From: Candidatus Accumulibacter cognatus
Lineage (GTDB): Bacteria; Pseudomonadota; Gammaproteobacteria; Burkholderiales; Rhodocyclaceae
Length of the DNA stretch: 64,000 bases
Assembly: GCA_013414765.1 (NCBI GenBank)
Contig: CP058708.1
Coordinates: forward strand, 3,653,553 to 3,717,552
Reading direction: 5' to 3'
Shown piece after piece: positions 21,403-53,446 of the stretch. Within the stretch, counting starts at the first letter, position 1; each line of letters opens with the position of its first letter. Under the pieces are notes generated by a model. The model was not told the origin of the DNA. It saw nothing but the letters and a program-made list of their open reading frames with translations, and ran no database searches. The position numbers were made by a program, and so were the translations under genes.

Positions 21403-22374
21403 ATGACCTCGATGGCTGCCCGCGCGCGCGCGGCCAGTGTCAGCGCCTATCTTGACGAACTTGCGCAGCAGCGACGGTTGTCGGCGCACACGGTCAGTAA
21501 TTATCGGCGTGATCTCGATCTGCTTTGCGATCTGAGCGGCGGGTTGCCGGAGGATTCGCCTGGCGAATCGCCCGCCGGTTCACGCGCTGAATTATCCGAT
21601 GCCTCCGGCTTTGACGCCCTGCGGACGCATCACATCCGCCGCTTCGTCGCGCAGCTGCACGCGCGCGGGCTCGGTGGCCGCTCGCTCGGGCGCACGCTCT
21701 CGGCCTGGCGCGGTTTTTATCGCTGGCTCGGCCAGCACGGCATGGCCACGCAGAATCCCGTTGATGGCGTGCGGCCGCCGCGGAGCCCCAGGGGCTTGCC
21801 GAAAGTGCTGTCGCCTGACGAAGCGAGTCGCTTGCTGGAGGCTGATCCGCAGAACCTGTTGGCGGTTCGCGATCAGGCGATCTTCGAGCTGTTCTACTCT
21901 TCGGGCCTGCGCCTGGCCGAACTCGCAGCCCTGGACCTCGCCTCTCTCGACGAGCTGCTGGCCGGTGAGGTGCGCGTCCTCGGCAAGCGCAGCAAGCTGC
22001 GCATCGTTCCCGTGGGCAGCAAGGCCAGGGAGGCGGTGGCGCTATGGGCCGCGCAGCGCGCCTGCCTGGCGGCGGCCGACGAGGTGGCGCTGTTCGTTGG
22101 CCAGCATGGCAGACGCCTGGGCATGCGCATGATCCAGCAACGCCTGCAGCGGCGTGGACTGATGCAGGGACTGCCGGCGCGGGTGCATCCGCACATGCTG
22201 CGCCACTCCTTCGCCTCGCATGTGCTGCAGTCCTCGGGCGATCTGCGGGCGGTGCAGGAGATGCTCGGTCATGCCAGCATCGCTTCGACACAGGTCTACA
22301 CGCACCTTGATTTTCAGCATCTGGCGGCTGTTTACGACCAGGCGCATCCACGCGCCAAACGCAAGCCGGAGTGA
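21403..22374 (+). CDS. xerC: Tyrosine recombinase XerC
   Basis: A 323-residue tyrosine recombinase. The N-terminal SAM-like domain (SAYLDELAQQRRLSAHTVSNY) precedes the catalytic domain with Arg in YSSGLRLAELAALD, Lys in GKRSKLRIVPV, HxxR in HPHMLRHSFASH, and His/Tyr in LGHASIASTQVYTH. It acts with XerD at dif to resolve chromosome dimers. Linkage to dapF and DUF484 supports XerC rather than a mobile-element recombinase. The ATG at 21403 is one base after the DUF484 stop. A slightly longer interdomain segment (residues about 37-65) is visible. Confidence 0.96.
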   Translation: MTSMAARARAASVSAYLDELAQQRRLSAHTVSNYRRDLDLLCDLSGGLPEDSPGESPAGSRAELSDASGFDALRTHHIRRFVAQLHARGLGGRSLGRTLSAWRGFYRWLGQHGMATQNPVDGVRPPRSPRGLPKVLSPDEASRLLEADPQNLLAVRDQAIFELFYSSGLRLAELAALDLASLDELLAGEVRVLGKRSKLRIVPVGSKAREAVALWAAQRACLAAADEVALFVGQHGRRLGMRMIQQRLQRRGLMQGLPARVHPHMLRHSFASHVLQSSGDLRAVQEMLGHASIASTQVYTHLDFQHLAAVYDQAHPRAKRKPE

Positions 22375-22443
22375 CACGGGTCTTGCTCATTCGGTGCTGA
22401 TTTTGTTGTTCTTGGCGCCGCGCTGAGTATGTTGTTGACTGAT

Positions 22444-22492
22444 TGGGGCGATGTACGGGATTCGAACCCGTGACCACTGGAATCACAATCCA
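22444..22492 (-). repeat. Left attachment site: tRNA-His 3' fragment (attL)
   Basis: 49 bases identical to the 3' part of tRNA-His (anticodon stem-loop to CCA, read on the minus strand). The sequence then diverges into the element, so this is the displaced original 3' end and not a functional tRNA. Confidence 0.95.
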
Positions 22493-22577
22493 AACTTCTA
22501 GGCATTTTTCGACGTTGAAGAGGATGTACTGCAAGGATATGTTCTGAAAAAAATCAATTAGTTGATGAAAATAGACG

Positions 22578-22607
22578 TTGCTCGACGTTGAACGGAATTG
22601 ATATAAT
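22578..22607 (+). promoter_or_regulatory. Candidate integrase promoter
   Basis: A perfect -10 TATAAT (22602-22607) lies 18 bases after a -35-like TTGCTC (22578-22583), about 55 bases before the integrase start. The putative integrase arm-type repeats at 22595-22630 overlap it, so integrase binding could autoregulate transcription. Confidence 0.55.
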
Positions 22608-22630
22608 CTGCTTACTGTGTGCTTACTGGA
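22595..22630 (+). repeat. Subterminal repeat, left copy (candidate integrase arm sites)
   Basis: 36 bases that match 33631-33666 at 29 positions in the same orientation. Each copy contains two tandem GC(T/C)TAC motifs spaced about 11 bases apart. Placement just inside each att site fits arm-type integrase or excisionase binding sites. Confidence 0.6.
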
Positions 22631-22662
22631 TTCCGCTGGTAAGCAAAGCCGGAGACCATCAG

Positions 22663-24009
22663 ATGAGCGAAAACAAGGTTCCTTTCACTGCCGGGCGAGT
22701 ATCCAAGTTCGTTTGCGAGACAGGCAAAGCAGCGTCCTTTCTCTGGGACACGGAATCAGCCGGGCTCGGCCTGAAGGCGTCAGCCGGCGGCAGCAAGGTC
22801 TACGTCTTGCAGAGCCGCTTGGAGTCTGGCGCATCGGTTCGGCTGACGATCGGCAGCACCAAGGCGTGGACCCTGGGCGCCGCGCGCGACGAGGCCCGGC
22901 GCCTGCAAGTGCTCATTGACTCGGGGATCGATCCGCGCCAAGAGAAGCGCGACCGGATAGCCGAAGCCGAAGCGAAGCGCGCCGAAGCCGAGGCCAAGCG
23001 GATCGAACTGGAGCGCATCGTCGCGCCGGCAATGGAAGCCTGGCAGAAGTACATCGAAGCGCGCGCCCCGCGGTGGAGTCAAAGCCATCTCGGCGACCAT
23101 GCGACCGTAAGCAAGGAAGGAGGCGAGCCGCGCACCCAAGGGCGGCACCCTGGCGACAGTGACAAGACGCTGCCGGGCATCCTGCGCCCGCTGCTGGCCC
23201 TTCCTCTGGAACAGATCGACGCTGACCGCGTGCGCGTCTGGCTTCAGGATGAGGCCGCCAAACGCCCGACACATACCCGCCTTGCCTTTTCTCTACTGCG
23301 TGCCTTCCTGAACTGGTGCGCCGACCGCCCCGAGTACCGCGACCAGGTACAGGCCGACGCCTGCATCACGCGCATGGCCCGCGACGAACTGCCGAAGAAA
23401 TCCGCCAAGGACGATTGCCTACAGCGTGAGCAGTTGCCGGCATGGTTCGCCGCCGTGCGCCAGATTCAGAATCCCGTCATCGCCGCCTATCTCCAGACTG
23501 CGCTGCTGATTGGTGCGCGCCGTGAAGAGGTGGCCGGCATCCGGTGGGAAGATGTGGACTTCCAGTGGAAGGCGCTGACGATCCGGGACAAGGTAGAAGG
23601 CGAGCGCACTATCCCGCTCACGCCCTACGTTGCCGCGCTGCTGGCCGGCCTGCCGCGTCGCAATGAATGGGTGTTCTCCAGCGTCACGGCGGCATCTGGA
23701 AGGCTTCAGGAGCCGCGCATCATGCACAACAAGTGCCTTGTTGCTGCCGGACTTCCGGCGCTGTCTATCCACGGTCTGCGCCGTTCCTTCGGCACGCTGG
23801 CGGAGTGGGTGGAATGCCCGGCTGGCGTCAGTGCGCAGATCATGGGACACAAACCGAGCGCGACCGCAGAGAAGCACTATCGAGTACGCCCGCTCGATCT
23901 GCTGCGCATGTGGCACACCAAGATCGAAGGCTGGATTCTCAGCGAGGCAGGTATCGAGCAGCCAGTAGAAGCCGACACGCGCCTGCGAGTCGTGCAGAGT
24001 GGATTGTAA
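22663..24009 (+). CDS. P4-type tyrosine integrase (DUF4102 N-terminus)
   Basis: A 448-residue integrase; the ATG at 22663 has a GGAG site eight bases upstream. The N-terminal DUF4102 arm-binding domain (SFLWDTESAGLGLKASAGGSKVYVLQ; IGSTKAWTLGAARDEARRL) is followed by a charged helix rich in EAEAKRAEAEAKRIE, a core-binding domain and the catalytic domain. The active site is visible as Arg in GARREEVAGIRW, HxxR in IHGLRRSFGT, and His/Tyr in MGHKPSATAEKHY. It should recombine the tRNA-His 3' end. Its position adjacent to attL and its reading direction away from the att site are typical of tRNA-targeting islands. Confidence 0.96.
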   Translation: MSENKVPFTAGRVSKFVCETGKAASFLWDTESAGLGLKASAGGSKVYVLQSRLESGASVRLTIGSTKAWTLGAARDEARRLQVLIDSGIDPRQEKRDRIAEAEAKRAEAEAKRIELERIVAPAMEAWQKYIEARAPRWSQSHLGDHATVSKEGGEPRTQGRHPGDSDKTLPGILRPLLALPLEQIDADRVRVWLQDEAAKRPTHTRLAFSLLRAFLNWCADRPEYRDQVQADACITRMARDELPKKSAKDDCLQREQLPAWFAAVRQIQNPVIAAYLQTALLIGARREEVAGIRWEDVDFQWKALTIRDKVEGERTIPLTPYVAALLAGLPRRNEWVFSSVTAASGRLQEPRIMHNKCLVAAGLPALSIHGLRRSFGTLAEWVECPAGVSAQIMGHKPSATAEKHYRVRPLDLLRMWHTKIEGWILSEAGIEQPVEADTRLRVVQSGL

Positions 24010-24027
24010 AGCAGGGATATACAGGCT

Positions 24028-24306
24028 ATGATTGTCTCGTTTCGACACAAGGGGCTTGAAGCCTTCTTCCGCTCTGGTACGCAAGCCGGCATCCAGCCGA
24101 TTCACGCCAAGCGCCTGCGGGAAATGCTGACCGCCCTGCATGCCGCATCCAGCCCCGGCGATTTGGCTCGCCCGTCTTGGCGCCTGCATGGTCTGTCCGG
24201 CGACCGCGCCGGCTTTCTTGCCATGACGGTGCAAGCTAACTGGCGGCTGGTTTTCCGGTTTGACGGAACGAACGTGGAGCTACTCGACTACATCGACTAT
24301 CACTGA
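24028..24306 (+). CDS. higB: HigB-type RelE superfamily toxin
   Basis: A 92-residue protein with the HigB/RelE plasmid-killer pattern: MIVSFRHKGLEAFFRSG, then AKRLREMLTALHAA, WRLHGLSGDRAGFLAMTV and NWRLVFRFD. This family consists of ribosome-dependent mRNA endonucleases that halt translation. It is followed three bases later by a HigA-like antitoxin gene, the toxin-first order of higBA. Within the island it probably stabilises the element after excision. Confidence 0.92.
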   Translation: MIVSFRHKGLEAFFRSGTQAGIQPIHAKRLREMLTALHAASSPGDLARPSWRLHGLSGDRAGFLAMTVQANWRLVFRFDGTNVELLDYIDYH

Positions 24307-24309
24307 AGG

Positions 24310-24600
24310 ATGAAGATGGACATGTACGACCCCGCATCACCAGGCGAAGTGCTTGCCGGCTGGCTCGAAGACCTCGACATGAGCGTGACCGCATTTGCTG
24401 CCCATGTGGGCATCAGTCGCGTCATGCTGTCGCGCATCCTGCACGGACACGCCGCCGTCACCGCCGACATGGATTTGCGCTTACATGAAGCCTTGGGTAC
24501 TTCGCCCGGCTTGTGGCTGCGCATGCAGACGCAGCGTGACCTGTGGATGGCCGGCGAGCGTGCCAAGGAACGGGCGCCAGTGGCACGAATCGCCGCCTGA
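24310..24600 (+). CDS. higA: HigA-type HTH antitoxin
   Basis: A 96-residue HTH_3/XRE protein: MYDPASPGEVLAGWLEDLDM and ISRVMLSRILHGHAAVTADMDLRLHEALGTSPGLWLRMQ are typical of HigA. It neutralises the HigB toxin encoded three bases upstream and should autorepress the operon through its helix-turn-helix. The first codons (MKMDMYDP) offer two possible starts; I keep the upstream one. Confidence 0.93.
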   Translation: MKMDMYDPASPGEVLAGWLEDLDMSVTAFAAHVGISRVMLSRILHGHAAVTADMDLRLHEALGTSPGLWLRMQTQRDLWMAGERAKERAPVARIAA

Positions 24601-24625
24601 TGGGGTTTGTGACTCCTGCGAAACT

Positions 24626-24647
24626 TGTGTAACATATACGTTACACA
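24626..24647. promoter_or_regulatory. Palindromic operator of the second toxin-antitoxin pair
   Basis: A perfect inverted repeat TGTGTAAC (24626-24633) and GTTACACA (24640-24647) with a 6-base centre ends three bases before the toxin start codon. This position suits autoregulation by the antitoxin, which has a helix-turn-helix. Confidence 0.7.
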
Positions 24648-24650
24648 TCC

Positions 24651-24977
24651 ATGTTTGACCTCCTCGACTATCAGACGGCAGATGGGCGCGACCCGTTCAA
24701 GGAATGGCTGGCATCCGTGGCAGACAGACAGGCGCGTGCAAAGGTGGCCGTCCGGGTGCAACGGTTGGCCGCTGGCAACTTCGGCGACCACAAGCCTGTG
24801 CGCGCTGGCGTATGGGAATTGAGGATAGACCACGGTTCCGGCTACCGCGTGTATTACGCCCAAGCCGGCCGGCGGGTGCTGTTGCTGCTGATTGGTGGCG
24901 ACAAGCGCCGCCAGCAAGCCGACATTGAAACCGCCGTCCACTACTGGCAGGATTGGCAAAGGAGGAATGAACCATGA
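24651..24977 (+). CDS. RelE/ParE superfamily toxin, addiction-module killer type
   Basis: A 108-residue protein: DYQTADGRDPFKEWLASV, RVQRLAAGNFGDHKPVRAGV, WELRIDHGSGYRVYYAQAG and LLLLIGGDKRRQQADIETA match the HigB-2-like killer-protein group of the RelE/ParE superfamily. The toxin is presumed to act on translation. A paired HTH antitoxin gene overlaps its end (ATGA at 24974). This is the second, sequence-unrelated HigBA-like pair in direct succession. Confidence 0.92.
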   Translation: MFDLLDYQTADGRDPFKEWLASVADRQARAKVAVRVQRLAAGNFGDHKPVRAGVWELRIDHGSGYRVYYAQAGRRVLLLLIGGDKRRQQADIETAVHYWQDWQRRNEP

Positions 24978-25291
24978 AAGCCGCTCGCCCCCACGACGAT
25001 GCAATGGTGGAACTGCTGCGTGAAGACCCGGCTTTTGCCGATGAATACGTCACCGCAGCACTGGAGGAAGCCGACGAACCAGGCGGCAGGCAAGCCCTGT
25101 TGCGCGCTCTGCGCCAAGTCGCACAAGCCCAAGGGATGCAAGAGGTAGCGGCACGTGCGGGACTGCGCCGCGAAAGCCTTTCCCGTGCACTTTCTCCCAA
25201 GGGAAACCCGACACTTGAAACCTTGCTGGCGGTCCTGTCTGCCGCCGGTCTGCGCCTGGCCGTGGCGCGGAAGGAAGAACACGCCGCCTGA
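24974..25291 (+). CDS. HTH antitoxin of the addiction-module type
   Basis: A 105-residue protein with an N-terminal helix (EYVTAALEEADEPGGRQALLRALRQVA) and a C-terminal XRE-like helix-turn-helix (MQEVAARAGLRRESLSRALSPKGNPTLETLLAVL). This is the usual antidote partner of the killer protein encoded immediately upstream, and the genes overlap by four bases. Autoregulation through the palindrome at 24626-24647 is likely. Confidence 0.93.
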   Translation: MKAARPHDDAMVELLREDPAFADEYVTAALEEADEPGGRQALLRALRQVAQAQGMQEVAARAGLRRESLSRALSPKGNPTLETLLAVLSAAGLRLAVARKEEHAA

Positions 25292-25334
25292 CCGAATCAC
25301 CGCCGCCTGACGGCTTTCAGGCAACGAGCACCAC

Positions 25335-25402
25335 TGCCGCGCCTATCCCGAGGCCGATCACCGAGGGAGAAAACCGGGTTCCTTCACCCGGCTGGCGCGG
25401 CA
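25335..25402 (+). ncRNA. Candidate structured RNA or cruciform, three-way junction, upstream of 454-aa gene
   Basis: Outer arms TGCCGCGCC (25335-25343) and GGCGCGGCA (25394-25402) pair perfectly over 9 bp. Within them lie two hairpins. One pairs TCCC/GGGA (25346-25349 with 25365-25368), with an opposed GA/GA internal loop and a GG/CC inner pair. The other pairs CCGGGT/ACCCGG (25374-25379 with 25386-25391) around TCCTTC. Together they would form a three-way junction ending 34 bases before the gene start. It could be a leader RNA controlling the downstream gene or a DNA cruciform; no known riboswitch class is recognised. Confidence 0.45.
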
Positions 25403-25436
25403 CCCCAAACGAAGGAGCGCAGGGAAGGAGCGCAAC

Positions 25437-26801
25437 ATGAATGTCGTAGTTCTCATCAATGGCCGCGAGGCTATTCCAGTGCGCGCCATTCCTTACGTGA
25501 CAGGTCGGTGGATGTCGCCCGATGTGGTTGCGAAATCACTCGCCTACACTGATTCAATGAACAGATTCGAGGGAATATATGCCTACCAACTGCTGGCGGA
25601 TGGGGGATATTCTCAAGTCTTGCCTGGAGACTGGGATGTTGTTGACGATCTATTGCAGGGGCTCGAAAGCAGCCTCAATGCTCTGAGCGATGACCGCAAG
25701 CTGACTCGCCCGGTCTGGCTGACCGAGTCGACAAAGCAACTGCCCGCAGGTGTTTTTCTCTGGCGCGACGAATTCGAGCAGGCATTCCACCGAAACTACT
25801 CTCCGCCGCGCTTTAGCTTGCTTGACGAGCGCCCCGGCGACCTGACGCTGAGATTTTCGCCGCTAATTTCCCCGCCAGAAATGCGAGGCGTGGTCATGGA
25901 GGGGTTTGAGGATTCGGCGGACGATCTGCTGGTGGGCAAGATACGAAATGACCAAACGAGGCTGCTATTGAGTGCCGGGGACGATGCAGCGACAGATCGA
26001 TTTGCGCAACGCTATTTTGAAGATGGCTTCAACAAGGTCACGAGAGAGAAGGCAGGCGAACGGAACTTTGAGGCGAAAGTTGCCGCCGTCAATCTGACCG
26101 ACGAGAGGTGCATCGAGCTTGCGCATTCGCATGAACTGCGCATCGCTGACTGGACCGCGCTGACCGGCATAGGTATCGGCGTGCATTGGTCGTATGTCGT
26201 CAGCGCCGAGGGGGTTGCCTTCAGAAAGTGGACCGAGGGCGAAATCAGCGAAGCGTCTGTCGACCGACAGATCGAGATGCACCAGGATAACGAGGCAGTA
26301 CCGCTCAGGTTCCCCTGCGCGCCAGCGAAGCTCTTGCAGTTCATCGACGCAGCACCGCCGGGGAGTCACCGCTTCAGTATTCCAGATGTATTTCGGCAGG
26401 CGGTGACCGAGCAAGCACCGATGACCGACACCCCGGCGCGGGTACCGGCTGAATTGCAGGGGCAGAGTGATATCACCCATTCTGGAGCGCCAGAGAAGGC
26501 CGCGCCAGTGGTAACGCCTGATGATGACGAGCAAGGCGAGGCCGCGACGACGGCGCAGGAACAGAAAGCCGACGCGACGCAGAGCACAAGGCGAATACCA
26601 GAACAGCGTCGCCAAGAACAGGAAATCCTGCAGGTACTCTGCGAACTTGGATATTCGGCTGATGCGCTGCCTAAATGGGTTTCCGGTAAGCCTGGCGTAA
26701 AGGCCGAGGTAAGAGGCAGGTTCGCGTCTTGGCAAGGCACAGTTTTTAATAAGGCATGGGATCGCCTGAGAGCAGACAAAAGAATTCGAGACGCAGACTA
26801 A
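25437..26801 (+). CDS. Hypothetical island protein, 454 aa
   Basis: I do not recognise a family for the N-terminal three quarters, which is acidic and soluble with no membrane segment or export signal. After a low-complexity linker (about 340-390, rich in Ala, Glu, Gln and Asp) the C-terminal 60 residues (RRQEQEILQVLCELGYSADA, KPGVKAEVRGRF, FNKAWDRLRADKRI) resemble a small C-terminal module I associate with phage and island proteins, perhaps a winged-helix or partner-binding unit. An AAGGAG site precedes the ATG. It lies alone between the toxin-antitoxin genes and the replication block, behind a strongly folded leader. Confidence 0.8.
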   Translation: MNVVVLINGREAIPVRAIPYVTGRWMSPDVVAKSLAYTDSMNRFEGIYAYQLLADGGYSQVLPGDWDVVDDLLQGLESSLNALSDDRKLTRPVWLTESTKQLPAGVFLWRDEFEQAFHRNYSPPRFSLLDERPGDLTLRFSPLISPPEMRGVVMEGFEDSADDLLVGKIRNDQTRLLLSAGDDAATDRFAQRYFEDGFNKVTREKAGERNFEAKVAAVNLTDERCIELAHSHELRIADWTALTGIGIGVHWSYVVSAEGVAFRKWTEGEISEASVDRQIEMHQDNEAVPLRFPCAPAKLLQFIDAAPPGSHRFSIPDVFRQAVTEQAPMTDTPARVPAELQGQSDITHSGAPEKAAPVVTPDDDEQGEAATTAQEQKADATQSTRRIPEQRRQEQEILQVLCELGYSADALPKWVSGKPGVKAEVRGRFASWQGTVFNKAWDRLRADKRIRDAD

Positions 26802-26823
26802 ACCCTACTCCCCCGACCCTGCT

Positions 26824-26873
26824 CCCCCAAATTGGGGGAAGGGGGATACTTGCGGGGGAATATATCGGGGGAA
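26824..26873. repeat. GGGGGA-box repeats with hairpin upstream of the small DNA-binding gene
   Basis: CCCCCAAATTGGGGG (26824-26838) is a perfect palindrome around one base. It is followed by GGGGGA boxes starting at 26834, 26841, 26854 and 26867, the last three 13 bases apart. The set precedes the replication-gene operon by 70 bases and could bind a regulator or serve as a terminator for the gene upstream. Confidence 0.5.
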
Positions 26874-26941
26874 ATATTGTTTCATTCGCCTACGGCACTT
26901 CATGTTGAAGCGCCGAGGTTTTCCAACAGGAGAACCCGCGA

Positions 26942-27121
26942 ATGGAAAAAAGCAGCACTCAGAAATACGACCAAAGCGCCGAACAATTCGCCGCGCTGAA
27001 TCAAGTCAAGGCGCAGTCAGTCCGGGCGCGCCTATGCAGAACGGGCAGCTATTTCGGCGTGGTGCCGGTCAAATTGGCAAACGGACGCCTTGCTTGGCCT
27101 GCCGTGCAGGTGGCGAAATGA
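26942..27121 (+). CDS. Small AlpA/excisionase-like DNA-binding protein, 59 aa
   Basis: A 59-residue protein starting MEKSSTQKYDQSAEQF, with AGGAG nine bases upstream. The core SVRARLCRTGSYFGVVPVKL followed by ANGRLAWP has the helix-turn-helix-plus-wing pattern of AlpA/MerR-like or excisionase-like proteins, where the wing reads NGRLxWP. Its stop overlaps the next start (ATGA), placing it at the head of the replication operon. Such proteins in P4-like elements control integrase or replication genes. The assignment rests on pattern and context. Confidence 0.7.
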   Translation: MEKSSTQKYDQSAEQFAALNQVKAQSVRARLCRTGSYFGVVPVKLANGRLAWPAVQVAK

Positions 27122-27471
27122 AAACCGCCCGCCCCCAAAATTCGGAAGCGAGCGCCCATGACAAGCGCGATTTTATCACGCACGATTCGCTCAAAGCCCG
27201 CCTTCAGGCCGGAGAAATCGTCACCGCGACCGACTACGACGAGAGCATCAGACCGCAGTTCTGGACGACAATCGCCATCGTTCAAGACGATATGCCCGCC
27301 GTCAAATCGTCCTGGTGGACGACCGACGAGCGGCACATCGACGGCCTGCGCATCCGGCAGCGAGTCTTTGCGATTCGCCCGCGCCAGAAGGGAGTCATCG
27401 ACGCGACGCTAGCCGCGCTTATCGTCTTCGCTGTCGTTGGCATCGTGTTGCTCGCGGGAGGTGCGCTGTGA
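27118..27471 (+). CDS. Hypothetical protein with C-terminal membrane helix, 117 aa
   Basis: A 117-residue protein coupled by an ATGA overlap to the small DNA-binding gene. The soluble part contains SLKARLQAGEIVTATDYDES and KSSWWTTDERHIDGLRIRQRVFAIRPRQ. A single C-terminal transmembrane segment (TLAALIVFAVVGIVLLAGGA) suggests a tail-anchored inner-membrane protein. Function unknown. The frame extends upstream to 26902, but that part overlaps the small gene and lacks a ribosome site. Confidence 0.65.
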   Translation: MKTARPQNSEASAHDKRDFITHDSLKARLQAGEIVTATDYDESIRPQFWTTIAIVQDDMPAVKSSWWTTDERHIDGLRIRQRVFAIRPRQKGVIDATLAALIVFAVVGIVLLAGGAL

Positions 27472-29621
27472 TGCGCGACGCCTTCGCCGAAATCGAGCGC
27501 GCTAGGGCTGCACTCTGGAGCATTGACGCCGGCACCGACCGCGAAACCTGGGTGAAGATCGCGATGGCCGCGAAGTCTGCCGGGCTGGACTTCGACACAT
27601 GGCACGAATGGAGTGCAACCGCCGGCAACTACAAGAACGAGGCCGATTGTCGATCTGTCTGGCAGAGCATCAAGCCCGGCCCCGTCGGCGAGGGTTCGCT
27701 GTTCCATGCTGCGCGCGCTGCTGGCTGGAGCGACGACGAAGGAGCGCCCGCTGTGCGCCCGCAATCGCACCAGGAACGACCGAAGCAGCCCGAGGCGACC
27801 AAGCCCCCGCCGTATGACCCTCGCGTGCTGTGGGATGCTTGTGTACCCGCAACGGCAGAGCAACCTTATGTCATCAAAAAGCTCGGATTGCCTGACGGTC
27901 TGCGCGTCTATCGCGGCTCAATGACCATTTCCGGGAAACCCTGCAATGGCGCTTTGGTTCTGCCCTGCCGGACTCTGGACGGCGATCTGGCGAGCCTGCA
28001 ATTCATTATGCCCGATGGAAAAAAGCTGTTCTTGCCGTGCCGCAAGTTACCCCATGACGGATGCTTGATTATCGGTGGCCCTATCCGGGAAGGCTGCCCC
28101 GTCTACGTCGGTGAGGGCGTCGGACAGGCATGGAGCGCGCATCAGGCGACGAGGGCGCCGGCTGTCTGCTGCTTCGGAATCGGACGAATGGCAGGAGTCG
28201 CCAAGGCACTGCATGAGCGCTATCCAGCGGCCCGGCTGGTGCTGGTGGCCGACGCCGGCAAGGAAAACCAGTGTGCAGCCATCGCCAAGGACGTTCACGG
28301 CGCCTGTGTGGAAATGCCTGAGGGAAGCCCGAGTAACTTCGACCTGAACGATTTTCACCAGGCGCACGACCTCAAGCCCGTTGCCGCCCTGCTGGAGCGC
28401 GTCAAGGCGCCGACCTCACGGTTCAAACTATCGGAGCGCACCGCTGACCGCCTATTCATCGGCGAGCCGCCGCCCGTCAATTGGCTTGTTCGCCGAATCT
28501 TTCCGCTGGGCGTTTGCTGTCTCGTCGCATCACCGCCAAACGTCGGGAAGAGCTTTCTGTCTCTCGAACTGGCCGCGAAGATGGCCGGCTGGCCCGGCCC
28601 GGATTCGGATTACTCCTTCGGCGCCGAAGTGGCCGCACATGGCCGGGCCGTCTATGTCTCGGCAGAGGACGACGAGCCGGAGATTCACCGCCGACTCTGG
28701 AGCCTGTGCAATGGCCGCATGCCCGACCGGCTGCATGTGCTGAGCCTGCCCGACGTGGGGCACTTCGGCATCATCGAAGTCGACCGCGTGACGAAGGAAT
28801 ACCGCCCTACCGAGGCATGGCGCGACCTCGTTGCGGAGATCCGCGAACTGCCCGACGTGAAGCTGATTCTGCTGGACACCCTGCAAGCTTTGACGACCGG
28901 CGACACGAACACGGTAGAGGCGACGCAACCGCTGATGAACGAATGCACCGCCCTGGCATCAGCAACGGGCGCCTGTGTCATGTTGCTGCATCACGTAGCC
29001 AAGGGCAGCACCAAAGAGATACGAACCGCTCTTGATGCGCTGGAGTGCATCCGTGGTTCTGGCGCAATCATCGGCAGTGCCCGTGCCGCCTATGTCATGT
29101 GGCCGCCCGCCGACGGCGGTAAAGCAATCTGCGATGTTCTCGGCGAGCAGTACCAAGAAGGCAAGGTGGCGCACGGCATCCTGGCGAAGAAGTACGGCGA
29201 CGGACGCCGCGACCGCTCAGTGTTCGTCCGCGACGAGCGCGGCATCCTGCGAGACAGGACAAAGCAATACACCGCCCTTTCTGGTGCCGCCGACGACAGC
29301 GAAGCGCTGCGCGATGGCCTGGCAACTGGCATCCGCGAGCAGTGGCAGGCAGGCGCATCGTTCGCCGCAAGCAACGGCAGCAACGGGCTGCACGCGCGCC
29401 GCTTTGAACTGCCGGAAATGTTCCACGACAAGCCGCGCGCATGGTTCGATAAGACGATAGCGCTGCTACTGGCCGAGGCCCGCATCAAGCGCATGCCGTA
29501 TCAAGGTGGGAAGCGATATTGCCCGCCCGAAGCCGCCGCCGCGATACCGAAGCACGCGCCAACGGAAGCCGAAAACGACGCCCCCGAGGCCGAAGAATCC
29601 GCGCCAGAGGAAGCGGCATGA
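27471..29621 (+). CDS. Primase-helicase: PriCT-2, Toprim-like and RecA-like (RepA/DnaB) ATPase domains
   Basis: A 716-residue replication protein; the ATG at 27471 overlaps the previous stop and has GGGAGG nine bases upstream. The N-terminal PriCT-2 domain (WVKIAMAAKSAGLDFDTWHE) is followed by a Toprim-like segment (VYVGEGVGQAWSAHQAT and LVLVADAGKENQ). A RepA/AAA_25-type helicase domain completes it, with Walker A VASPPNVGKSFLSLE, Walker B-like LILLDTLQAL, and MLLHHVAKGS with IRGSGAIIGSARAAYVMW. It should prime and unwind DNA for autonomous replication of the excised island. It is immediately followed by an iteron-like repeat field. Confidence 0.9.
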   Translation: MRDAFAEIERARAALWSIDAGTDRETWVKIAMAAKSAGLDFDTWHEWSATAGNYKNEADCRSVWQSIKPGPVGEGSLFHAARAAGWSDDEGAPAVRPQSHQERPKQPEATKPPPYDPRVLWDACVPATAEQPYVIKKLGLPDGLRVYRGSMTISGKPCNGALVLPCRTLDGDLASLQFIMPDGKKLFLPCRKLPHDGCLIIGGPIREGCPVYVGEGVGQAWSAHQATRAPAVCCFGIGRMAGVAKALHERYPAARLVLVADAGKENQCAAIAKDVHGACVEMPEGSPSNFDLNDFHQAHDLKPVAALLERVKAPTSRFKLSERTADRLFIGEPPPVNWLVRRIFPLGVCCLVASPPNVGKSFLSLELAAKMAGWPGPDSDYSFGAEVAAHGRAVYVSAEDDEPEIHRRLWSLCNGRMPDRLHVLSLPDVGHFGIIEVDRVTKEYRPTEAWRDLVAEIRELPDVKLILLDTLQALTTGDTNTVEATQPLMNECTALASATGACVMLLHHVAKGSTKEIRTALDALECIRGSGAIIGSARAAYVMWPPADGGKAICDVLGEQYQEGKVAHGILAKKYGDGRRDRSVFVRDERGILRDRTKQYTALSGAADDSEALRDGLATGIREQWQAGASFAASNGSNGLHARRFELPEMFHDKPRAWFDKTIALLLAEARIKRMPYQGGKRYCPPEAAAAIPKHAPTEAENDAPEAEESAPEEAA

Positions 29622-29956
29622 GCGCCCGTCAATATGCCATTGGAACTTGGCCAAGAATCAAACTTGGCCGGCCAAGTTCTACCCGCCGCCAAGTTCGTGC
29701 CAAAAGAAGAATCCAGCAATGGCAAGGGTTTGCGGCCTGTTTTTATGCCATTGGAACTTGGCCAAAACTGAACTTGGCCGAAGCTCTGCCAAGTTTGCAA
29801 GCCTATGATTCAAAAGATGTTTTAGAACTTGGCAACTTGGCCCCCCTAAAGGGGGGTAGAGCTTCCGGCCAAGTACCGGAAAGCTCGCCCCTTTCGCGGG
29901 AGTCGGGGAAGGGGAAAGAACCGTCCTTCTCTGGTACGAAAAGGGGTAGATCGTGA
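29618..29956 (+). CDS. Possible 112-aa protein across the repeat field
   Basis: An ATGA overlap with the primase stop and a GTGA overlap with the nuclease start would make this frame part of a tight operon. However, the sequence is dominated by DNA repeats: YAIGTWP occurs twice, 37 residues apart, because of a 111-base duplication. The product is basic and low in complexity. It may simply be an open frame across an origin-like region. Confidence 0.35.
   Translation: MSARQYAIGTWPRIKLGRPSSTRRQVRAKRRIQQWQGFAACFYAIGTWPKLNLAEALPSLQAYDSKDVLELGNLAPLKGGRASGQVPESSPLSRESGKGKEPSFSGTKRGRS
29644..29874. repeat. Iteron-like AACTTGGCC repeats, candidate replication origin
   Basis: At least nine copies of AACTTGGC occur in both orientations, at about 29644, 29661, 29671 (inverted), 29688 (inverted), 29755, 29771, 29788 (inverted), 29826, 29834 and a partial copy at 29868 (inverted). 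One pair forms the perfect 18-bp palindrome AACTTGGCCGGCCAAGTT at 29661-29678. A roughly 60-base unit is duplicated at a distance of 111 bases. The position directly after the primase-helicase gene fits an origin recognised by that protein; this is inference. Confidence 0.65.
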
Positions 29957-30363
29957 GCATCGCCGCCAAGCGTCCGGAGCAAGTAGCGCTGTTCAGCAAC
30001 CTGCCGGAGGCGTCGCCAGTCCCGAGCCACAATGCCCGCAGCGAAGCCGCCGCACTGGCCGAAGTGCTCCAGACGCTCAAGCATCACCCGCTTGTCGCAT
30101 GGTGCGAGCGTCAGAATTCAGGCGTCGCGCGCATCGGTGGCCGGTTCGTGCGGTTTGGCTGGCTTGGTTGTTCGGACCTTCTCGGCATGATGACCGATGG
30201 CCGGCTGTTGGCCGTTGAGTGCAAGGCGCCGAAAGGGCGGCTACAGGTAGAGCAGCAAGAATTCCTTTCACTGGTGCGCCGCTTCGGTGGCGTGGCCTTC
30301 CTGGCGCGTGACTGCCGCGACGTGTTGCGCGAGTTATCAACAATCGAAGGAAGCAATACATGA
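29953..30363 (+). CDS. VRR-NUC domain nuclease
   Basis: A 136-residue protein starting at GTG 29953 with a GTGA overlap. The C-terminal 90 residues carry a PD-(D/E)XK fold of VRR-NUC type: GVARIGGRFVRFGWLGCSD, then LLAVECKAPKGRLQVEQQEF and FLARDCRDVLREL. The likely catalytic acids are D of CSD and E of VECK, followed by K. Stand-alone VRR-NUC proteins in phages and islands are structure-specific or resolvase-like nucleases working with replication genes. Its place after the primase and repeat field supports a role in replication or recombination of the element. Confidence 0.88.
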   Translation: MSIAAKRPEQVALFSNLPEASPVPSHNARSEAAALAEVLQTLKHHPLVAWCERQNSGVARIGGRFVRFGWLGCSDLLGMMTDGRLLAVECKAPKGRLQVEQQEFLSLVRRFGGVAFLARDCRDVLRELSTIEGSNT

Positions 30364-30608
30364 GCACTGAAGAACGCTTCGGGCTAATCGCTCGATACAT
30401 CCGCGCTGCCAGCGAACTGACGGTGCAGCTGGGGGCAACGGGAGACGAGCCGTTTAGCCTGCTGCTGCGAGCCGCACTTGACGAAGCGCAACGAGGCGCC
30501 GAGTCGTCGGGCTCGGGGCAACCATGCCAAGGCGATGATGCCCACCAACCGCCCGGCCTGTACGTGGCGGTCAGTCGCCGCGACAGCAACGATGAAATCC
30601 CGTTCTGA
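30360..30608 (+). CDS. Small protein with SSB-like C-terminal tip, 82 aa
   Basis: An 82-residue protein overlapping the nuclease gene by four bases (ATGA). The N-terminal half is helical (FGLIARYIRAASELTVQL). The C-terminus, RRDSNDEIPF, mimics the acidic DDIPF tip of single-strand-binding proteins, the docking site for many DNA-processing enzymes. No OB-fold is present. It may recruit host replication proteins to the island. No family is recognised. Confidence 0.6.
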   Translation: MSTEERFGLIARYIRAASELTVQLGATGDEPFSLLLRAALDEAQRGAESSGSGQPCQGDDAHQPPGLYVAVSRRDSNDEIPF

Positions 30609-30697
30609 TGAGCGCCGAGTGCGTCCGGCCAATAACATCTTAGTACTGACGTTTAGCGTTCTGACGCGCTGCACGGCCGGCCGGGGTAGGGAGGGAG

Positions 30698-30796
30698 ATG
30701 GATGGCATCACCCGGCCGGCAATCGCCCAGCGTGGCGCGATTCTGCAAGCTACAGAGGGATTGACGAGCGACTGGGCGCTGAACCTTTACCGTTGA
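30698..30796 (+). CDS. Possible 32-aa peptide
   Basis: A short frame beginning MDGITRPAIAQRGAILQATE, with a GGGAGG stretch just before the ATG, in the otherwise empty 200 bases between two island genes. The spacing to the ribosome site is short. Coding status is uncertain. Confidence 0.2.
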   Translation: MDGITRPAIAQRGAILQATEGLTSDWALNLYR

Positions 30797-30806
30797 GGAA
30801 CACGAA

Positions 30807-31241
30807 ATGAGCGACACAAAGAAAACCGAGGGACTACGCCCCGGCTGGCAGCCTGGGCAATCGGGCAATCCGAAAGGGCGGCCGAAGGGAAGCCGCAACC
30901 GCGTCACCGTCGTGGCGCTGGCAGCGATGGAGGAAGGCGCCGATGCCATCGCGCGCAAGGTGGTGGACATGGCAAAGCAGGGCGACATGAGCGCCGCCAG
31001 ATTGGTGCTTGAAAGACTGGTGCCGCCGGCGAAGGAGCGCCCGGTCTACCTCGAACTGCCGGACATGGACACCGCCGCCGGCATCGCCGAGGCGCAGCAA
31101 GCCGTCCTGCAGGCGGTGGCCGATGGCGAACTGCTACCGGGAGAGGCCGCGACGCTGGCCGGGATCGTGGAGGCGCGCCGCAAGGCCGTTGAGACACTGG
31201 AGCTTGAACAACGCATCACCGCACTGGAGGGGAAGAAATGA
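30807..31241 (+). CDS. DUF5681 family protein
   Basis: A 144-residue basic-start protein with the DUF5681 signature WQPGQSGNPKGRPKGSRN followed by a helical region (VALAAMEEGADAIARKVVDM and SAARLVLERLVPPAKERPV). DUF5681 proteins are frequently encoded near phage terminase genes, but their role is unknown. A truncated second copy lies at 32237. The downstream gene overlaps by four bases. Confidence 0.88.
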   Translation: MSDTKKTEGLRPGWQPGQSGNPKGRPKGSRNRVTVVALAAMEEGADAIARKVVDMAKQGDMSAARLVLERLVPPAKERPVYLELPDMDTAAGIAEAQQAVLQAVADGELLPGEAATLAGIVEARRKAVETLELEQRITALEGKK

Positions 31242-31501
31242 GCACGACACTTGAACGCCGCACCGCCAAGCTGGAACAGGCCGCGTACCTGGGCGAGGAT
31301 CGCCTCGAAGTTATCGTCGTCAGAGGCATGCCGATAGTCGGCTGCGAGGTTATCCGCGCCTCCTTTGGCGATCAGGTTGTCGACCGCCGTGCCGACGAGG
31401 CTGAAGACGACTTCATTGAACGGGCAACGGCCGAAGCCCTGGCCGCTACCCGTCAGCGCCCATGCCTGGTGTTTCTCCTCTCCGAGGAGGTGCCGCAATG
31501 A
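31238..31501 (+). CDS. Hypothetical protein, 87 aa, paralogue of next gene at N-terminus
   Basis: An 87-residue protein starting MSTTLERRTAKLEQAA, a short coiled-coil-like segment shared with the next gene product (MSTPMERRLAKLEEAL). The remainder (EVIVVRGMPIVGCEVIRASF; RPCLVFLLSEEVPQ) is not recognised. ATGA overlaps on both sides put it in one operon with DUF5681. Confidence 0.7.
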   Translation: MSTTLERRTAKLEQAAYLGEDRLEVIVVRGMPIVGCEVIRASFGDQVVDRRADEAEDDFIERATAEALAATRQRPCLVFLLSEEVPQ

Positions 31502-31905
31502 GCACGCCAATGGAACGTCGCTTGGCCAAGCTCGAAGAGGCATTGCAGCTGCAACCCGTGCAGCCTTTTTGCCTGCTGGCGGAACCGCTGACCGATGCGG
31601 CCCCCGAGGCATGGGACGGGCACCGGCAGAAGGTCGAAGAAGCGAAGGCCCGCGGTGATTTCGTCGCCGTCGTGTCGTCGGCAGTCAGTCAAGGAGATCG
31701 GCCCCACAGCGCGAACGGCGTGACGTACTACCCCAACGATTTTGAAGCCCGACTTGTTGATGCGTCGATGCTTCCCTCCAATCTCGGCAACAAGAGCCTG
31801 CTGGAAGACATATTCAAAACGCTCAGAGGGGAAGTTTGGGGACCGGTGGCGCACCCTGAAGTGGTGGAGGAGGATGGCGAGCCGGGCAGCGACATGGCGA
31901 TGTGA
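31498..31905 (+). CDS. Hypothetical protein, 135 aa, paralogue of previous gene at N-terminus
   Basis: A 135-residue acidic protein that starts MSTPMERRLAKLEEALQLQP, echoing the preceding gene. The rest (VAVVSSAVSQGDRPHSANGV; MLPSNLGNKSLLEDIFKTLR) is unassigned. The start at 31498 overlaps the previous stop (ATGA); the earlier in-frame start lies inside that gene. The shared N-terminus suggests a common docking segment. Confidence 0.68.
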   Translation: MSTPMERRLAKLEEALQLQPVQPFCLLAEPLTDAAPEAWDGHRQKVEEAKARGDFVAVVSSAVSQGDRPHSANGVTYYPNDFEARLVDASMLPSNLGNKSLLEDIFKTLRGEVWGPVAHPEVVEEDGEPGSDMAM

Positions 31906-32236
31906 CGGCGCCACAGGCACGGCAATATTTCTTGGCGAATGCGTGACGGTGGCGGCGATACCGATCCTCCATCAAACTTTGGCGCCGCACAATGCCAAGG
32001 GCAACGCCAAGCATGAATCGCTCCAAGGCTTGCCGCTGCTGACGCTTGGCCGGTAGTGGTCACTCCTGGCGCAGAAATTGCATACGCTGCGCTGCGCAAT
32101 GCTATCAGAATGCCGTCACCGGCGACGCTCAGGGGTGTTTCTGTGGCGTCATGGGACAGATGTATCGACTGAGGGCTGATCGTTGGGGCGAGTGTGCAGC
32201 CTGCTGGGGCGTCCGGCTAAATCGTCAGGAGATTCA
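31906..32236. other. Intergenic stretch inside the island
   Basis: About 330 bases with no supported gene, RNA or repeat. A ribosome site (AGGAG at 32227-32231) at its end serves the truncated DUF5681 frame. Confidence 0.5.
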
Positions 32237-32380
32237 GTGGCTTGGAAAGAAGGCGAAAGCGGCAACCCACTCGGGAAGCCGCCCGGTGCACGGAACGAGG
32301 CAACGGTCATGGTTTTGGGTTTGATGGAACTAGGCGCGAAGGAAATCGACAGCTGTCAGGCTGTGGCACGCTTACGGTAA
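32237..32380 (+). pseudogene. Truncated second DUF5681 gene
   Basis: A GTG start five bases after AGGAG opens a 47-residue frame, AWKEGESGNPLGKPPGARNE, which matches the DUF5681 N-terminal signature. Homology stops after about 40 residues. The frame then runs convergently into the 3' end of the PEP-CTERM gene, overlapping it by 25 bases. The junction probably marks where the cargo gene was inserted and cut this gene short. Confidence 0.75.
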
Positions 32381-33492
32381 CGTACAGTAAGCCCCAGCAC
32401 GCCCAAGCCGGCGAGCATCAGCGCGCATGTTTCTGGCTCAGGTACCGCGGACAACAGGTAGGCGTGCTCCTGTCCTGTGATGCTGTTGCGGGCGACGCCA
32501 GTAATCCATCCACTGTCGTTGATGCCGTGACCCTCCGTTAGCACCCAGCCTGAGCTGACAGTCGCTGCGTCAAGGAAGCTATTCAGGTCAGTCCCTGCAG
32601 CTCCATTCCAAAGGGTGGCGTGGGTAACCACATTGCCCGGGATGAAGGAAGACCCGACGACCTGTCCTGAGTTGTTAATTCCAAAAGCATAGCTAATCTT
32701 ACCTCCCAAGGTGCCGAGGTCAGTGGCTGTAGTGCCGTTCCAGAGCGTGGCATGCTGATCGCCGGCCGCAGTGTAGGCATCTCCGACGACTTGCCCGGAG
32801 TTGTTGATTGCATACGCAGCGCTAATCTTACCTCCCAAGGTGCCGAGGTCAGTGGCTGTAGTGCCGTTCCAGAGCGTGGCATGCTGATCGCCGGCCGCAG
32901 TGTAGGCCCTCCCAACGACCTGTCCGGAGTCGCTGATTCCAAAAGCATAGCTGGAGGTTCCACCCAGGGTGCCGAGGTCGGTCACGGCCGTGCCGTTCCA
33001 GAGCGTAGCGTGTGCAGCCGCGTCGCCCGCGGTATGCCCAAATCCCACGACTTGCCCGGAGTTGTTGATCCCGTATGCGAGGCTGTAAGTTCCACCCAGG
33101 GTGCCGAGGTCGGTCACGGCCGTGCCGTTCCAGAGCGTAGCGTGGTAACCCTCACCGACTGCGGTTGTGTAGCTCCACCCCACGACTTGCCCGGAGTCGT
33201 TGATTCCAACTCCAAAGCTAGACGTTCCTCCCAAGGTGCCGAGGTCAGTGGCTGTAGTGCCGTTCCAGAGCGTGGCATGCTGATCGCCCGCGACGTAGAT
33301 ACTCCCAATAACTTTTCCTGAGTTGTTGATTCCAGAGCCATAGCTAACGGTTCCACCCGGGGGGCCTAGATCGGTGAACGTGTAGACGGGCGCCGCAACC
33401 GCGTTGGTGCCGGCTGCACACAAGGGGACTGCGGATAGGAGCAGTTCGAGGAGGCGAAAACGACGGAAATGCGTGGTGATATGGGCAGACAT
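32356..33492 (-). CDS. HAF-repeat PEP-CTERM sorted surface protein
   Basis: A 378-residue exported protein (signal LLELLLSAVPLCAAGTNAVA) with about six HAF-type repeats of 42-43 residues, each containing HATLWNGT, TDLGTLGG and GINNSGQVVG. It ends in a PEP-CTERM sorting signal: VPEPETCALMLAGLGVLGLT followed by a basic tail. The signal directs cleavage by exosortase and release to the envelope or exopolysaccharide. It lies inside the integrated island beside the right attachment site, on the opposite strand to all island core genes, and reads as cargo. Two units are almost identical at DNA level (32701-32958), implying recent duplication. Confidence 0.93.
   Translation of the reverse strand: MSAHITTHFRRFRLLELLLSAVPLCAAGTNAVAAPVYTFTDLGPPGGTVSYGSGINNSGKVIGSIYVAGDQHATLWNGTTATDLGTLGGTSSFGVGINDSGQVVGWSYTTAVGEGYHATLWNGTAVTDLGTLGGTYSLAYGINNSGQVVGFGHTAGDAAAHATLWNGTAVTDLGTLGGTSSYAFGISDSGQVVGRAYTAAGDQHATLWNGTTATDLGTLGGKISAAYAINNSGQVVGDAYTAAGDQHATLWNGTTATDLGTLGGKISYAFGINNSGQVVGSSFIPGNVVTHATLWNGAAGTDLNSFLDAATVSSGWVLTEGHGINDSGWITGVARNSITGQEHAYLLSAVPEPETCALMLAGLGVLGLTVRYRKRATA
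32701..32958. repeat. Tandem 129-bp coding repeat within the HAF gene
   Basis: Two adjacent 129-base units share long stretches of exact identity, including more than 70 bases from the start of each unit. Further diverged copies continue to about 33300. Copy number could vary by slippage without changing frame, since 129 is a multiple of three. Confidence 0.8.
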
Positions 33493-33630
33493 TTGCGAGT
33501 CCCTTCCTGACTTGGGCGAGAGTGCTGCGCATCACCGACAATTTGGCTTGGCTGCTGACAGGGTGCCCGAGCCTGCCGCCCTCACCGCTCAGGCACCGCG
33601 CCGGGTATTTTTCGTTGGTGGCGTGGATTC

Positions 33631-33666
33631 GGATTGATCAAATCTGCCTACTATCTGCTTACCGGA
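33631..33666 (+). repeat. Subterminal repeat, right copy (candidate integrase arm sites)
   Basis: Matches 22595-22630 at 29 of 36 positions in the same orientation, with the same pair of GC(T/C)TAC motifs. It lies 53 bases inside the right attachment site. Confidence 0.6.
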
Positions 33667-33719
33667 AGGCCGGACAGCAAAAAGGCCACTATCGAAAGTT
33701 TCCTAAGCGCTTGATTTGA

Positions 33720-33796
33720 TGGGGCGATGTACGGGATTCGAACCCGTGACCACTGGAATCACAATCCAGTGCTCTACCAACTGAGCTAACACCGCC
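33720..33796 (-). tRNA. tRNA-His (GTG), intact, containing attR
   Basis: Minus-strand cloverleaf with acceptor GCGGTGT pairing ACATCGC, the His-specific extra G at position -1 opposite C73, anticodon loop TTGTGAT (GTG) and encoded CCA (33720-33722). The 3' 49 bases are the right copy of the island attachment repeat, so the gene was regenerated by the integrating element. Confidence 0.97.
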
Positions 33797-47073: not shown

Positions 47074-47389
47074 TAATTGTAGTTAATTGTTGTATATGGA
47101 AAATTCCCGCAGACAAGCATCGGCAAAGGCAAAGGTGTAAAAAATATCGACACCACTACGTTAAGGAGAATGGCCATGCCGGGACGATTCATCACGTCGA
47201 TCCAGGTCCCGCGCAGTGAAATATCACTCGCAAACCACGGATTGCCCTCATCTTATAATCGGCAGCACATCTCTCGTCCGCACCAACCGCGACGCCCCGG
47301 GCTTCACCGCGGCCCGGGCATCCCGCCGCATCTTCCTGACGACCTCGTCGAAGAGTACGCTCCTGCCCATGTAGAAGTCCTTGCCGATC

Positions 47390-47457
47390 CGGACATATCG
47401 GAGTTCCGGACATATCGGAGTTCCGGACATATCGGAGTTCCGGACATATCGGAGTTC
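47390..47457. repeat. Four exact tandem copies of a 17-bp unit
   Basis: CGGACATATCGGAGTTC is repeated four times without mismatch. It lies in the gap downstream of the lectin operon promoter and 50 bases beyond the mrpG stop. Because 17 is not a multiple of three, copy-number change would shift any frame running through it. A minus-strand frame ending near 47248 (MGRSVLFDEVVRKMRRDARA) may be the tail of a degraded gene. Confidence 0.9.
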
Positions 47458-47860: not shown

Positions 47861-48126
47861 TCGATGATGTCTCCGCGCAGCAGGAACTTGCACAGCGCGA
47901 CGGTGCCGACGAAGCCGAGCAGCGCCAGCAGCAGCGCCGCCTCGAAATAGGCGGTGCTGGCGCTGTTGATGCCGAACAGCACCAGGAGCGCGATGGCGTT
48001 GATTCCCAGGGTGTCGAGCGCCAAAATGCGGTCGCTGGTGTCGGGTCCGCGCAGCAGTCGATAGAGGTTGAGTGCCAGGGCTGCGCCGATCAGGACGAAG
48101 GCCATCTCGATGGCGGAATTCAGCAT
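47857..48126 (-). CDS. mrpF: Na+/H+ antiporter subunit F
   Basis: An 89-residue MrpF/PhaF subunit: three helices and the conserved YRLLRGPDTSDRILALDTLG motif. It starts within the end of mrpE and overlaps mrpG. It is part of the hetero-oligomeric membrane antiporter. Confidence 0.96.
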   Translation of the reverse strand: MLNSAIEMAFVLIGAALALNLYRLLRGPDTSDRILALDTLGINAIALLVLFGINSASTAYFEAALLLALLGFVGTVALCKFLLRGDIIE

Positions 48127-48611
48127 GCAAAGATCTCCTTGAGCGGCGACTCGTAACGCGTCTTGATTTCGCGCACCAGTGCCTGCGGATCGGGTGCATC
48201 GAGCGCATGGATCAGCAAAGTCCAGCGTTGACGGTCGACGTCGATCGACAGCGTGCCGGGGGTCAGAGAAACGACGCTGGCGAGCAGGGTGGCGACGAAT
48301 GGGTCGCGCAGGTCGAGCGGCACTTCGACGAAGGCTGGAGATAGCCGGTGCAGCGGCCCGATGACCTGGCGTGCGACCCGCCAGTTGGCGGTGACGATGT
48401 CGAGCGCAAAGACCCCGAGGAAACGCAGCGCCTGCCCTGGCCGCACCAGGCGCGGCGGGTCTGGCCAGAAGGGGCGGGTCAACCGCGGCACGACGATGGC
48501 CAGCAAGGCACCGAGCAACAGCAGGCCGGGCGGCGCTGCGTTGGTGATCACCGTCCACAGCAGAAAGACGGTCAGCGACAGGAATGGCCGCGGGAACAGC
48601 CTGTGGATCAT
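48120..48611 (-). CDS. mrpE: Na+/H+ antiporter subunit E
   Basis: A 163-residue MrpE subunit with two N-terminal helices (FLSLTVFLLWTVITN; GLLLLGALLAIVVPRLT), an FALDIVTANWRVARQVIGP motif and a cytosolic C-terminal domain (ASVVSLTPGTLSIDVDRQRW). It overlaps mrpD by four bases. Starts inside the longer frame were rejected in favour of MIHRLFPRPFLSL. Confidence 0.96.
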   Translation of the reverse strand: MIHRLFPRPFLSLTVFLLWTVITNAAPPGLLLLGALLAIVVPRLTRPFWPDPPRLVRPGQALRFLGVFALDIVTANWRVARQVIGPLHRLSPAFVEVPLDLRDPFVATLLASVVSLTPGTLSIDVDRQRWTLLIHALDAPDPQALVREIKTRYESPLKEIFAC

Positions 48612-53270: not shown

Positions 53271-53446
53271 AGTCGCCTTGGCCCCGCTCACCGGCACTCC
53301 AAGAATGATCTGCCAGTCTAAGCCAAACCAGAAAGAGCCAGCAAGGTATTTTGCTGACAAGGAAGCCCAGGCCCGGAGCGAAGCGCCTTTCCGGCCTGCC
53401 TCTCGGTCGACCCCGGTGGCGCGACGCGTCCCCGCATCCGTGTGAT

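Follow-up and report, generated by a model that had tools for sequence, protein, structure and literature searches.

P4-like satellites integrate into tRNA genes and carry an AlpA-type regulator and a primase. The Gram-negative phage-inducible chromosomal islands (PICIs) of the EcCICFT073 and PmCI172 type, as portrayed in the sections of two papers used here (PMC6092414, PMC10111431), encode an integrase, an AlpA-type regulator and a primase; their genes run mostly in one direction, accessory cargo is present, structural genes are missing and the integration sites are often tRNA genes. The same sections name int, alpA and pri as the PICI essentials, describe four ordered zones with the ori downstream of pri (PMC10111431), and place the origin immediately 3' of the replication gene, where two iteron sets flank an AT-rich region (PMC6092414). 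Tycheposons, in the excerpt of the source relied on here (PMC10872708), are cargo carriers of 4-200 kb that are bordered by tRNA genes and encode a tyrosine recombinase. Here we analyse a stretch of 64,000 nt from Candidatus Accumulibacter cognatus (the window, part of the single 5.17-Mb contig CP058708.1), which contains an 11.3-kb island at a tRNA-His gene. With moderate confidence we interpret it as an integrated phage-satellite-like (PICI-like) island, one of a family that would use a DUF5681 protein as packaging adaptor.

Boundaries and replication module of the island

An earlier note, made from the letters of the window, had proposed that the island ends in 49-bp direct repeats, with an integrase gene next to one of them, and both points proved correct. 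The repeats are exact (22444-22492 and 33720-33768). An intact tRNA-His(gtg) gene (33720-33795, minus strand; ARAGORN) forms the high end of the island, and the low repeat copy, in the same orientation, equals the 3' 49 nt of this gene. The tyrosine integrase gene (22663-24009, plus strand), encoding 448 amino acids (aa) from the likelier ATG proposed by the gene caller and matching Arm-DNA-bind_3 and Phage_integrase, lies beside the fragment copy and reads inward. With the start at ATG 22663, paired GCTTAC repeats (22610-22626) lie upstream of the gene, and paired GCYTAC repeats are present near the right end (33646-33662). The 11-bp step is equal in both pairs, as expected for integrase arm sites, and we infer that they are candidates for this role. 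The remaining exact direct repeats of at least 25 nt in the 64 kb are internal repeats of a HAF cargo gene and a short tandem at 47388-47428.

Fifteen of the 16 listed open reading frames (ORFs) of the element are on the plus strand, the exception being the HAF gene. No relaxase, secretion, capsid, portal or large-terminase gene was found among the 16 (all compared with Pfam, ten with PHROGs), in agreement with the earlier note. The island therefore has the integrase with a specific, repeat-flanked att site, the one-directional genes and the lack of structural and large-terminase genes that are features of PICIs.

The replication module starts with a gene for a 59-aa AlpA-like DNA-binding protein (26942-27121, plus strand). 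The AlpA-like regulator of the earlier note stands only in so far as longer homologues match the excisionase/regulator family phrog_66 (locus L078, E value 2e-4; L013, E value 0.0036); the copy in the window has no significant match, i.e. none in Pfam or NCBIfam and a weak one to a PHROG of unknown function (E value 0.006), and its structure model was too poor to use (predicted local distance difference test score, pLDDT, 67). It is followed by a gene for a 117-aa protein with a hydrophobic C-terminus (27118-27471, plus strand), recognised by alignment and without a Pfam match, which directly precedes the primase in all three aligned copies and gave only weak matches, in 2 of 398 other genomes. 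The primase-helicase (27471-29621, plus strand; 716 aa) combines PriCT_2, Toprim_3 and AAA_25, the Toprim_3 match falling just below the cut-off (25.0 against 27.2 bits). A scan with this primase returned two genome contigs and no viral contig, and its matches in phage and plasmid collections were partial and below 40% identity among those listed.

Directly 3' of the primase-helicase gene we found a putative replication origin (29644-29875) with ten of the 21 AACTTGGCC-type sites (at most one mismatch) present in the whole 64 kb. A 30-bp tract (29796-29825; 67% A+T against an element mean of 39%) splits these sites into two groups; it is not the part of the element richest in A+T, which is found by the left end. 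With the HAF region left out, one exact 9-mer occurs six times within 300 bp, whereas no 9-mer exceeded three copies in 100 first-order Markov simulations, and the iteron-like repeats of the earlier note are thus above chance. By its anatomy the island shows a further PICI feature, a primase with iteron sets round an AT-rich tract immediately 3' of it. A VRR-NUC nuclease gene (29953-30363, plus strand; PF08774) and a gene for an 82-aa protein without match (30360-30608, plus strand) follow. The primase-helicase, VRR-NUC and DUF5681 assignments of the earlier note were all confirmed by Pfam.

DUF5681 and the phage large terminase

The DUF5681 gene of the island (30807-31241, plus strand; PF18932, E value 4e-15) is proposed to encode a small-terminase-like packaging adaptor, on account of the place that such genes occupy in phages. 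In two phages, Leptospira LE4 and Rhizobium RHph_N3_2, the large terminase gene begins within the DUF5681 gene, and Pseudanabaena phage Pam1 encodes a relative with the annotation terminase small subunit; we found no paper joining Pam1, Pseudanabaena and terminase small subunit. At least 132 loci were picked from IMG/VR phage contigs by patterns of the conserved N-terminal motif of DUF5681. Of these, 129 were listed with an in-frame ORF (3 were cut, 15 had no adjacent ORF of at least 150 aa and 111 had one), and 89 of the 111 adjacent large ORFs match phrog_2, the terminase large subunit, while 74 match Terminase_6N and 54 Terminase_3 of Pfam, counts taken among the matches listed and without a control gene. 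A position directly upstream of the large terminase, a feature of small terminases, is therefore found in the motif-picked contigs, and the remark of the earlier note that DUF5681 is often near terminases holds. All 120 aligned proteins (that of the window and 119 viral ones, the usable part of 121) match PF18932, as the choice by motif predicts.

No function is assigned to the main PHROGs families that match DUF5681; for two members there is a match to a terminase small subunit family at an E value of 0.004. The best hit of a sequence profile search of the PDB with DUF5681 had an E value of 0.039, and a match to an HMG-I AT-hook peptide (E value 0.49) was not used. Peptide patterns of the window protein gave no match in viral contigs. 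According to the relevant portion of one report, a DUF5681 protein is among the virion proteins of a Salmonella phage (PMC8954984). What is new here is the suggestion, based on position, that DUF5681 may act as a small terminase.

In the island the gene is followed by genes for two small proteins of 87 aa (31238-31501; LERR-type N-terminus) and 135 aa (31498-31905), both on the plus strand and kept beside DUF5681 in congeners. Small LERR-type proteins also follow DUF5681 in other bacteria and in phage contig MT836812 (L151, L147, L152, L122); DUF5681 and the LERR-type protein are a conserved two-gene pair. A second, truncated DUF5681 copy of 65 aa (32183-32380, plus strand) scores 23.8 bits with PF18932, below the cut-off.

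Sister islands, the empty site and cargo

DUF5681 genes were detected in the own genome (G000) and in 11 of 27 congeners (other G-numbers; fetched loci have L-numbers), at 18 places; in a sample of 398 other genomes of the order, 17 have such a gene. A short form and a truncated copy were set aside, and the other 16 of the 18 places were examined. A tRNA gene is present in the fetched stretch at 12 of the 16, within 2.7 kb at 11 of them (no control for tRNA density was applied), and three of the four places without tRNA meet a contig edge within 0.5-1.5 kb.

Several of these places are complete islands. The own genome contains a second copy of the primase (73-75% identical), which belongs to an element of 8.0 kb at tRNA-Met(cat). 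This element is bounded by a 48-nt repeat, shows TAGCCA pairs with an 11-bp step close to each of its ends and, at the place corresponding to the putative origin, has six copies of a different 9-mer, GAACTGCGC. Islands of congeners occupy tRNA-Ala(cgc) in G010 (15.2 kb; integrase 72% identical), tRNA-Met in G015 (24.4 kb; 80%) and tRNA-Asn in both G022 (27.5 kb; 76%) and G017 (41.5 kb), the last with DUF5681 and an integrase only 25% alike. Whole or partial members were also found in G004, with short repeats right after the primase, in G008, with an 11-bp repeat elsewhere, and in G019. The six complete islands of the genus lie at tRNA ends, with a terminal repeat of 45-50 nt that begins in the anticodon arm. 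Since integrases 72-80% identical (five islands) use at least four tRNA genes (His, Met, Ala and Asn), the choice of target shifts easily within one integrase group.

The tRNA-His locus seems to be rearranged, and its flanking DNA differs between species. The xerC gene (window 21403-22443) borders the island; in congeners xerC is not beside tRNA-His (L016-L043). At the tRNA-His loci of the 27 congeners (left flank of 1.5 kb in 25 of them, of 149 bp in one and of 1 bp in another) we found no xerC match and hence no empty site of the His element itself, and window DNA past 22378 never follows xerC in congeners. In 11 of the 27 the left neighbour of tRNA-His is a shared gene that looks ketosynthase-like by eye (no family search was made). 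In view of the apparent rearrangement of the locus, the tRNA-Asn sister was used for the empty-site check. The far flank of the G022 island directly follows an intact tRNA-Asn in G010, G021, G025 and G015, i.e. an empty site in 4 of the 12 loci examined (79-93% identity over 99-130 nt); it follows only a tRNA-Asn fragment in six loci (G022, G014, G001 twice, G009 and G021), and of the other two loci one had no upstream DNA and one no match. The empty site confirms the boundary rule for tRNA-Asn, and the view that the repeats are element boundaries thus holds for this sister, with no such site found for the His element.

The conserved genes of these islands are maintained. The DUF5681 gene, compared with 15 other copies (one in the own genome), gave nonsynonymous rates (dN) of 0.09-0.30 and synonymous rates (dS) of 0.71-1.44, and a like dN/dS pattern was obtained for those pairs of integrase and primase genes that were measured; all three genes are under purifying selection.

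Outside the genus, 12 stretches were fetched from 24 DUF5681 places in other Burkholderiales. In eight of them DUF5681 is accompanied by a tRNA, integrase or primase, and the large terminase has no match; two of the other four have an adjacent large terminase and two have neither. The long form of DUF5681 (match spanning residues 14-141 or more) is present in seven of the eight island-type stretches, the match in L340 covering only residues 14-73, and in the two stretches with a large terminase the match ends at residues 31 and 104. Two small relatives are complete: one of 6.8 kb at tRNA-Arg (L333, genome G250), with an integrase, a D5_N/PriCT_2 primase, DUF5681 and a head-morphogenesis gene (PHROGs), and one of 5.5 kb at tRNA-Met, with the integrase beside the intact tRNA. 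Two IMG/VR contigs also have a long-form DUF5681 without a large-terminase match in the DNA examined, one of them beside a VRR-NUC gene, as in the window, and the other after a CHC2-Toprim primase. Contrary to the suggestion of the earlier note, the group is therefore not confined to this lineage, since long-form DUF5681 islands are present in other families of Burkholderiales.

The cargo of the island in the window consists of two toxin-antitoxin pairs and a HAF-repeat PEP-CTERM gene, without defence genes. The pairs, on the plus strand, encode a HigB-like toxin (24028-24306; PF05015) with a HigA antitoxin (24310-24600; TIGR02607, above cut-off), and a RelE/ParE-type toxin (24651-24977; TIGR02683, above cut-off, and PF05973) with an addiction-module antidote (24974-25291; PF21716). 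Next to them, a 454-aa protein of unknown function (25437-26801, plus strand), without match in Pfam, PHROGs or NCBIfam scans, is kept in sister islands (stretches 40-68% identical in G015, G022 and G005). The HAF gene (32356-33492, minus strand; TIGR02913, E value 2e-52) has a 79% identical homologue in G010, likewise at the tRNA end of the island, and such genes are recurrent cargo, inside or close to DUF5681 islands (L103, 1825-2952; L334, about 11322-12122). Elsewhere in the window, a strong A/T skew at 48000-57000 changes sign near 55 kb.

Defence genes are the cargo of other members: all ten cargo proteins chosen from five Accumulibacter islands matched defence models (L111, 8088-19337; L105; L112; L114; L115). 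These include BrxC, PglX and BrxH of BREX in G022 (BrxH also in G017), a DrmD-like helicase (DISARM-like), a type III methyltransferase and a candidate-system protein in G015, an Snf2 helicase and a type IIG enzyme in G014, and a DpdF-like helicase in G019; among the defence-carrying islands both ends are known in G022, G017 and G015. In five islands of the genus a Terminase_2 small terminase is also encoded, and its gene separates DUF5681 from the tRNA end or the contig edge.

A satellite-like island and the competing interpretations

The picture of an integrative, replicative- and satellite-looking element in tRNA-His, drawn in the earlier note, is strengthened by the related elements, the empty site of a sister, the ori-like layout and the link between DUF5681 and the terminase. 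Its statement that gene set and order match no satellite family that it could name needs correction, since the order resembles the published plan of Gram-negative PICIs. The island differs from this plan in that DUF5681 replaces a known terS or capsid-redirecting gene, two toxin-antitoxin pairs are present, the weak AlpA-like gene lies by the primase instead of int, some sisters reach 24-41 kb with whole defence systems, and the host lineage is betaproteobacterial. Our search found no paper joining phage-inducible chromosomal islands, Betaproteobacteria, satellite and tRNA. With P4-like satellites the island shares tRNA integration, a putative AlpA-type regulator and a primase, which is of the D5 type in the relative L333; in the island itself, by contrast, the primase is PriCT_2-Toprim-AAA_25, and general scans returned no match to P4 capsid-size or transactivation genes.

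Should the reading as a PICI-like satellite be right, the integrase would insert a circle into the anticodon-to-3' half of tRNA-His, leaving the tRNA intact at one end, a step that both the anatomy and the empty site of the tRNA-Asn sister support. Upon a trigger, probably infection by or induction of a helper phage, the AlpA-like protein and the integrase would excise the element, and the primase-helicase, judging from the anatomy, would copy it, starting at the iteron origin that directly follows the primase-helicase gene. DUF5681 would then bind the element DNA and dock it to the large terminase of the helper, resulting in packaging in helper particles; this role is proposed because of the position of DUF5681 in phages. 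The toxin-antitoxin pairs may guard against loss of the element, and sister islands carry defence systems on the same backbone. The island is thus a mobile one from a recurring family and appears, judged by its anatomy, to work like a Gram-negative PICI. Membership of the PICIs is not claimed, because the AlpA assignment is weak and phage-dependent induction and packaging are predictions. A locus near position 2449412 (2.45 Mb) of the own genome (L140) is a prophage candidate, not known as a helper; it matches the large terminase, and the gene next to this match looks, by eye, like a Mu-type portal.

Several observations weigh against the reading as a PICI-like satellite. Excision, replication, helper use and packaging are predicted from sequence, and the AlpA-like assignment of the window copy is weak. 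No comparable exact iteron cluster was found in G010, G015 or G022. Island and phage DUF5681 proteins are alike mainly in the N-terminal 60 residues (28-30% identity overall to LE4 and RHph_N3_2), no large-terminase match was found in the 8.7 kb of MT836812, the phage record with the best full-length match, and the fold (model with pLDDT 80 and predicted template modelling score 0.45) has no match at E values of 0.001 or below in BFVD or the PDB. Where Terminase_2 co-occurs, DUF5681 may have another task, and some relatives, of 24-41 kb, are large for satellites.

The alternative that fares best, although we consider it rather unlikely, is a tycheposon-like cargo island that excises, replicates and re-inserts without being packaged by a helper via its own adaptor, in which DUF5681 would be a DNA-binding or regulatory protein and transfer would occur by chance transduction, transformation or vesicles. 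The tRNA border, the tyrosine recombinase, the swapped cargo and the wide size range (8 to 41 kb) are shared with tycheposons as the cited part of PMC10872708 presents them, the long-form DUF5681 is unlike the phage forms past the N-terminus, and packaging of the element in particles is a prediction. The islands differ in their terminase-linked DUF5681 module, in the Terminase_2 of some of them and in cargo made up of defence rather than nutrient genes. Moreover, DUF5681 adjoins the large terminase in most motif-picked phage contigs (among the matches listed), and Terminase_2 in five islands and a head-morphogenesis gene in one relative would be needless for a purely self-moving island.

Much less probable is a decayed prophage whose structural genes have been lost, a view to which the phage-type integrase, the primase, the terminase-linked gene and the truncated second DUF5681 copy could be fitted: a compact gene set without structural genes recurs at independent tRNA sites and in independent genomes under purifying selection, the sole structural-type gene seen in a relative is the head-morphogenesis gene of L333, and no large terminase, portal or capsid hallmark was seen among the element ORFs scanned. 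An element mobilised by a conjugative helper via an unseen oriT is just as improbable, since the 16 ORFs include terminase-linked genes instead of a relaxase or conjugation gene, even though toxin-antitoxin pairs and a nuclease are present and no search aimed at oriT was made.

Returning to the PICI-like satellite, a wider proposal can be made, if only tentatively. DUF5681 might represent an unrecognised class of phage small terminases, whose long form would mark a superfamily of Burkholderiales satellites that hijack helper packaging and ferry whole defence islands (BREX, DISARM-like, restriction) between tRNA genes, some of them with two small terminases for two kinds of helper. The finding provides a possible role for a domain of unknown function that many phages have, and a marker, i.e. 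a long-form DUF5681 near a tRNA gene and without a large terminase, for satellites outside the enteric groups, in which most have been described. It also gives a test for the movement of large defence islands without conjugation genes in environmental bacteria. Candidatus Accumulibacter is a sewage bacterium, and the element described here may be one of a family of phage hitch-hikers through which immunity spreads.

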